This document shows, one piece after another, positions 19,292-20,122 of a DNA stretch of 39,919 nt; within the stretch, counting starts at the first letter, position 1, and each line of letters begins with the position of its first letter. Under the pieces are notes generated by a model. The model ran no database searches, was not told where the DNA came from, and saw only the letters and a program-made list of their open reading frames with translations. The DNA is from Candidatus Zixiibacteriota bacterium (lineage in GTDB: Bacteria; Zixibacteria; MSB-5A5; WJJR01). Position numbers and translations under genes: made by a program. The stretch covers positions 1-39,919 of the forward strand of contig JACRMA010000089.1 of NCBI GenBank assembly GCA_016235085.1. The letters run 5' to 3'.

Positions 19292-20122
19292 CTATTTCGT
19301 CTTGATATTCGCGCCCGTTGCCGGAGGCTGCTCCCCAGGTGCGAGCCAGCGCTGGTTTTTGGTGACCGGCACGGTAATCCGGGTCTTCGCCGCGTCGTTG
19401 GCTTCAATCGTAAACGACTTGGTGAAGATTTCACTGGCGATATCTTTGTCAAACTTGACCTTGATCGACTTTTCCTTGCCCGGCTTGATCTGTCCACCCG
19501 GCATGTCAACTTTGACAAACTCGGTCGGAGTCGATACCAGGCTGAATTCCATGGGCTCGGAAGAGACATTCTTGATGTTGACTTCGAATTCAATGCCCTT
19601 CTTCTGCTCCTCGGGTTTGGTCGAATCGAGCGCGATCCGGAATGGTTCGACCTTGAACAATTTCAGAGAATCTTGATTGAAAATCGGCCATGCCTGGAAT
19701 GACAATCCCGGCGGATTCCCCTGTGCATTGCACGCAATGCTGGCGCTCTTCGTGACACGTGAACTGTAATGTCCCGTCGAGAAGATGATTTCGATATCAG
19801 TGCTGTCTCCGACAGCAAGCTCCTTTTTCTTAAGCGGAGCTTTTGTGCATCCTCACCCAGGCCTCACGTCGGTAATTCGGAGTGTATCCTCACCGACACT
19901 CTTGACCCAGAACACGTGCGAGATACTCGAATTCTGCGGCACGTACCCAAAATTGAATGTTGTCTGCGGTACATCGATCTTGGCTTTCCTGATGGGTGCC
20001 GCCTTGGCGGTATCCGGGGCACCGGTCGGCGGTGTCGCCTTCGTGCTGTCCGGCGCGCCAAACGCTGTCGCGCAGGCACCCGCGAGGAGAACTGCCACCA
20101 GTGACCAATTTTTTAGTCGCAT
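19292..20122 (-). CDS. candidate selenoprotein: DUF1573 exported protein with in-frame TGA (19853-19855) at the first CGC cysteine
   Basis: ORFs 19853..20122 and 19292..19705 share one frame and the stretch between has no further stop. Joined: ...ITDVRPG[TGA]GCTKAPLKKKELAVGDSTDIEIIFSTGHYSSRVTKSASIACNAQGNPPGLSFQAWPIF..., aligning across the TGA with the neighbouring paralog. Confidence 0.75.
19817..19842 (-). promoter_or_regulatory. candidate bacterial SECIS hairpin
   Basis: mRNA sense: UGA-GGAUGCACAA-AAGCUCC-GCUUAAGAAAAA-GGAGCUU. Perfect 7-bp stem, loop starts with G, 17 nt between UGA and loop. Confidence 0.65.

Follow-up and report, generated by a model that had tools for sequence, protein, structure and literature searches.

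SelB is the factor that delivers Sec-tRNA-Sec, and the first DUF1573 selenoprotein with a UGC motif (U, selenocysteine, Sec) was reportedly described by Zhang and Gladyshev in 2007 from the metagenome of a deltaproteobacterial symbiont of Olavius algarvensis. DUF1573 with UGC is already a listed selenoprotein family (PMC9312934, PMC13188914). According to the published model of the bacterial SECIS (bSECIS), the apical loop has 3–9 nt and lies 16–37 nt from the UGA, a G occupies one of the first two loop positions, mostly in the form N1-G-G/U-N-N2, and the MFE is at most −7.5 kcal/mol (PMC13188914). Reviews state that some bacterial selenoprotein genes violate this model, and 'distinct classes' have been inferred, of which none has been named.

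Here we analyze a DNA stretch of 39,919 nt (the window) from a metagenome-assembled genome (MAG) of Zixibacteria (3.3 Mb, 142 contigs, 93% complete), which contains a DUF1573 gene with an in-frame UGA followed by two hairpins, HP1 and HP2 (Table 1). The locus shares with the known DUF1573 (PF07610) selenoproteins the Pfam family, the U-G-C motif and one Sec per protein, and it differs from them in being phylum-wide in Zixibacteria and often next to a Cys paralog, with some genomes carrying two or three Sec copies. With the bSECIS of the E. coli fdhF type, it shares a coding-region stem-loop 3' of the Sec-UGA and, in HP2, the C-G-G-N-G apical pattern; the differences are two abutting hairpins, a GGN loop 42 nt away and a 12-nt loop in HP1. 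We therefore place the protein in a known family and treat the RNA element as a new form of bacterial SECIS. Our main reading, to which we assign a probability of about 0.7, is that the UGA encodes Sec by means of a bipartite in-frame SECIS, with HP2 as the putative SelB site and HP1 as a spacer helix.

Table 1. Features of the Sec DUF1573 locus (window coordinates).
Feature	Position	Strand	Basis
DUF1573 selenoprotein gene	19292..20122	-	ORF, PF07610 match, AlphaFold2 fold, UGA conserved in relatives
In-frame UGA, predicted Sec codon	19853..19855	-	aligned with Cys TGC of paralogs
10-nt linker GGAUGCACAA, UGA to HP1	19843..19852	-	sequence
HP1, AAGCUCC-12 nt loop-GGAGCUU; proposed spacer helix	19817..19842	-	shuffles, pairing counts, covariation
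HP2, GCUGUC-GGA-GACAGC; proposed SelB-binding core	19802..19816	-	pairing, codon fixation, loop wobble enrichment
Cys-containing DUF1573 paralog, CGCTKAPL + APGDS, neither hairpin; control	18365..19129	-	adjoins Sec gene

The selenoprotein gene comprises 276 codons with a single in-frame UGA (codon 90) and the terminator TAG, and with the UGA read through its product matches PF07610 at 103.3 bits (7e-30) against a gathering cutoff of 26.1. The AlphaFold2 model built with 50 relatives (pLDDT 91) has two Ig-like beta-sandwich domains, for which the nearest folds are Ig domains of the ASPM-SPD-2-Hydin type; it also resembles 2qsv, a functionally uncharacterized protein from Porphyromonas gingivalis. 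The predicted Sec codon lies in the motif PG-U-GC-TKAPL, and in the model U-G-C occupies the loop that follows strand 3 of domain 1. Judged by eye, the N-terminus resembles a signal peptide, so that the protein is apparently exported; an exported U-x-C protein suggests a selenenylsulfide, and the U-G-C motif is probably a redox centre.

Both Sec DUF1573 genes of this genome adjoin a Cys DUF1573 paralog (18365–20122 in the window and L017:8641-10413), comparable neighbouring pairs occur in genomes elsewhere in the phylum, and in one locus (L072) three UGA copies of the gene stand in a row. Upstream of the Sec gene, 20327–21553 (minus strand) encodes a 408-aa short-repeat protein with no Pfam match. 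Inspected by eye, the product of 22400–23359 (minus strand) resembles a methionine sulfoxide reductase of the MsrB-MsrA fusion type with Cys in the active site, and it would add a further redox protein to the neighbourhood of the Sec gene.

Read on the minus strand from 19855 to 19801, the element is UGA GGAUGCACAA AAGCUCC GCUUAAGAAAAA GGAGCUU GCUGUC GGA GACAGC A. The original prediction, made from the letters of the window, concerned HP1 and described a perfect 7-bp stem with a 12-nt loop that begins with G and lies 17 nt from the UGA, which is correct to the base. RNAfold gave −20.3 kcal/mol for the 63-nt stretch (z = −2.7 against dinucleotide shuffles, 4/200 as good), and for HP1 of the window (positions 14–39, counted from the U of UGA) −9.3 kcal/mol, with z = −2.95 and 1% as good in codon-preserving shuffles. 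The adjacent Cys paralog (19129–18365, minus strand) folds without HP1, as had been claimed.

For the comparison across homologs, we used 94 distinct UGA segments and, as a control, 30 aligned Cys segments; most UGA segments were retrieved by a DNA pattern in which the protein motif is specified as far as position 20, counted from the U of UGA, and everything beyond is left free. The codon-preserving (synonymous) shuffle test covered 93 UGA genes and 30 Cys genes. It should be noted that the sequences are related, so the formal p-values given below overstate their independence; as a check, they were grouped into 62 clusters with <70% flank identity.

In the 93 UGA genes, HP1 had a mean z of −2.81, with 72/93 at or below 5%, against a mean z of −0.30 for the same region of the Cys genes (n = 30). 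With register shifts allowed, a stem of at least 5 bp forms in 88/94 UGA genes vs 4/30 Cys paralogs. Covariation among the UGA homologs, proposed earlier as a check, was found between positions 18 and 35, which change in a compensatory manner (UA 53, AU 9, GU 9, GC 6; Fisher 5e-15, against 0.39 in Cys genes); position 18 is the third base of Ala codon 6, where changes are synonymous, and position 35 is the second base of codon 12, where they are not. Being conserved, covarying and absent in Cys paralogs, HP1 thus survives the refutation test set with the original prediction, in stability against synonymous shuffles and in conservation among UGA homologs. HP1 nevertheless varies in sequence, length and register across the UGA genes: it has only 4 bp in 6/94 sequences, its register shifts in about a fifth, and only 44/88 have a G at loop position 1 or 2, so that there is no conserved loop G; the window copy has one.

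The second hairpin had been missed. In the window, HP2 is a perfect 6-bp stem that abuts HP1 with zero unpaired bases between them, and none of 300 codon-preserving shuffles was as good (z = −6.0). Over the 93 UGA genes, the mean z was −4.21, with 88/93 at or below 5%, compared with −0.31 in the HP2 region of the 30 Cys genes. Position by position, the most rigid stretch of the element is the 15 nt of HP2 (GCUGUC-GGN-GACAGC) and not HP1; it is nearly frozen in the 94 UGA sequences, where 98.9% of its cells are paired, and nearly all Cys paralogs are without it. A C-A mismatch within HP2 occurs in five sequences. Overall, 89.2% of the fixed-register pairs are formed in the UGA genes, and 48.7% in the Cys control. 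As judged by these comparisons of sequence, both hairpins are under selection at the RNA level and have been lost in the Cys paralogs. A further pairing, of GCUGCACC with GGUGACAGC, appears in some folds; it was set aside and not counted formally, since it also forms in a Cys paralog and is lost if the Gly/Thr wobble base is A.

In HP2, Ala is encoded by GCU in 93/94 sequences vs 20% usage in the flanks, the codon after it is GNC in 94/94 (GUC 89, GCC 5), Asp is GAC in 94/94 vs 38% in the flanks, and Ser is always AGY. The top of the hairpin is C-GGN-G in 94/94, and the wobble base of the loop is U (GGT) in 75/94 vs 20% in the flanks (Fisher 1e-28) and 5/30 in the Cys genes (7e-10); the window copy has GGA. 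This base is unpaired, so pairing cannot account for its U enrichment. The codon and loop pattern persists among the 62 clusters.

Conservation of Gly-Asp-Ser is partly a constraint on the protein and is also present in the Cys paralogs. Pairing of HP2 together with this conserved Gly-Asp-Ser suffices to force Val at the codon after Ala, and in this way the RNA shapes the protein; where HP2 encodes Val, the Cys paralogs have mostly Pro, Ala or Ser, and their Ala codons are mixed. The constraint that HP2 puts on the codons thus accounts for AVGDS in the Sec proteins, at a place where Cys paralogs often carry APGDS. Three Cys paralogs keep AVGDS (L091:3617-3682, minus strand; L063:1921-1986, minus strand; L066:1636-1701, plus strand); the first retains the full HP2 sequence GCTGTCGGCGACAGC, and in the other two HP2 has partly decayed. 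These genes have probably reverted from Sec to Cys not long ago, with their signal now in decay.

The selD genes of the phylum provide a second SECIS for the same genome and the same SelB. In the order of the window, the selD UGAs are followed at 17 nt by a C-GGU-G triloop hairpin, which shares the C-GG(U)-G top with HP2, and it differs in being a single hairpin, at 17–20 nt in most families and 33 nt in others. Elsewhere, the loop is GGU or GUU at 20 nt, or the hairpin is CAG-GUU-CUG at 33 nt, so the spacing from UGA to hairpin is not strict. Zixibacterial selD hairpins are more stable than codon shuffles. The spacing classes (loci L199-L238: 17 nt with GGU, 20 nt with GUU/GGU, 33 nt with CAG-GUU-CUG) follow family and may reflect divergence of SelB. 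A spacer helix upstream of the 33-nt hairpins was looked for and was not significant (upstream z −0.93, 4/21). Besides the UGA selD, many Zixibacteria have a second selD-like gene with an open frame of ~740 aa without UGA (L169-L188), probably a fusion.

The original prediction also held that HP1 fits the published SECIS model, and here the agreement is partial: the spacing of 17 nt and the loop G of the window copy are as expected, and the 12-nt loop exceeds 3–9 nt. HP2, with an apical loop of 3 nt, is within the range, and its loop lies 42 nt from the UGA in the linear sequence, beyond 16–37 nt, or 16 nt with HP1 folded. Against the limit of −7.5 kcal/mol, the MFE is −9.3 for HP1, −6.8 for HP2 alone and −18.7 for nt 4–60. 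Over 19600–20000, none of the Rfam SECIS covariance models matched at E values of up to 5.

Could HP1 itself nevertheless be the SECIS bound by SelB, with HP2 as an accessory, for example ribosome-stalling or stabilising, helix? HP1 starts 10 nt after the UGA with its loop at 17–20 nt, within the published spacing, and its stem beats shuffles and covaries, but the length of its loop in the window, its changing sequence, length and register and the loop G in only half of the copies, set against a near-invariant HP2 with an enriched GGU loop as in the selD hairpins, make this unlikely. HP1 alone as the SECIS, which is what had been predicted, therefore does not hold up well, the near-invariant part of the element being HP2 with its GGN loop. 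We consider it less likely again that the two hairpins bind or position SelB jointly as a composite fold (a coaxial stack) in which neither serves just as a spacer, with the UGA still encoding Sec: that no unpaired base separates them in the window and that both are selected would suit such a fold, and the free variation of the HP1 sequence and its register shifts argue against a specific contact with SelB.

In the bipartite reading that we prefer, the UGA at 19855–19853 would be decoded as Sec, and the signal within the reading frame would consist, in order, of the 10-nt linker, the variable HP1 and the abutting near-invariant HP2 with its GGN triloop, on which the C-terminal domain of SelB would dock. 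Folding of HP1 would remove 26 nt, and since 42 minus 26 nt is 16, near the 17 nt of selD, we propose that HP1 restores the distance from the UGA to HP2. Across the UGA genes, the effective distance to the HP2 loop after removal of HP1 has a mode of 16, a median of 18 and a range of 14–28 nt. Both the binding of SelB to HP2 and the spacer role of HP1 are what we infer from these patterns.

The UGA aligns with the Cys of homologs (PG-U-GC-TKAP vs PG-C-GC-TKAP), stands at the same codon in 10/10 genomes of the order, and recurs through the phylum. The same genome has a tRNA-Sec at C37:13429 (68.4 bits; ARAGORN agrees, anticodon tca), selA ~270 nt from it, a selB in which the C-terminal winged helix was found, and a selD that itself contains an in-frame UGA. 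No convincing Sec copy of formate dehydrogenase, considered as a second Sec gene, was found in the phylum. Contig 55 carries, beside a Cys paralog, another DUF1573 gene whose UGA occupies the same codon, and this gene differs from the window copy at 4 positions in the 51 nt after the UGA, with 45/135 and 60/135 in the flanks. Between this genome (G000) and a congener (G008), the codons 3' of the UGA show 16 synonymous and 7 nonsynonymous changes of 169 in gene 1 and 31 and 5 of 161 in gene 2, and mainly synonymous change is expected if those codons are translated.

The UGA is one base from TGC in a MAG sequence, so a real stop or an assembly error in a pseudogene, with hairpins due to chance or protein constraint, has to be weighed; we reject this as highly improbable, since the UGA is found in two paralogs here and in 99/136 genomes of the phylum, the downstream codons change mainly synonymously and the Cys paralogs are without the element. 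Of 21 main ORFs of the window that were checked, at least 9 end in TGA, which is also the true stop in 19/88 UGA genes with a closed frame; as it serves as a normal terminator in both, the code is not reassigned. Genome-wide reassignment of UGA (to Trp or Gly) instead of recoding by context, for which no support was found, has a negligible probability and is rejected in view of the normal TGA stops, the presence of tRNA-Sec, SelA and SelB, and Cys at the aligned position. From the conserved UGA and the Sec machinery, both directly visible in the genomes, we infer insertion of Sec, and the UGA of this apparently exported DUF1573 protein is almost certainly read as Sec across Zixibacteria.

In a DNA pattern search, the UGA with HP2 was found in those 99/136 Zixibacteria genomes, in 59/85 genera, and a reversed control pattern gave 0 matches. 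The C-terminal domain (wing) of SelB was found in 121/136; four genomes without the wing were checked, of which one has a SelB that scores above the cut-off and the other three yielded a partial match of SelB type. In families f4, f5 and f17–f19, SelB is present and the DUF1573 element absent. In a record titled Calditrichota (L125, DAOWIC010000219.1), a UGA gene of the Zixibacteria type is present together with this element, by misbinning or transfer. A Halovibrio match from the same scan (L093) has no DUF1573 frame and is likely due to chance.

We found no paper on selenoproteins of Zixibacteria and no description of a two-hairpin bSECIS in the open-access library searched, which is weak evidence of absence in both cases. 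With some reserve, we favour the view that the element represents a distinct, phylum-wide class of bacterial SECIS, in which a variable spacer helix would reset the distance from the UGA to a frozen GGU-loop SelB hairpin and the RNA would dictate AVGDS.

Taken as one such class, the Zixibacteria element would come with ~94 natural variants, a built-in Cys control and selD for comparison, and with it the rule for the distance between the UGA and the SelB site becomes directly testable. It would also be a case in which an RNA signal has shaped the coding sequence that contains it. Zixibacteria are added as a phylum with widespread use of Sec, in which standard gene callers will truncate such genes at the UGA.
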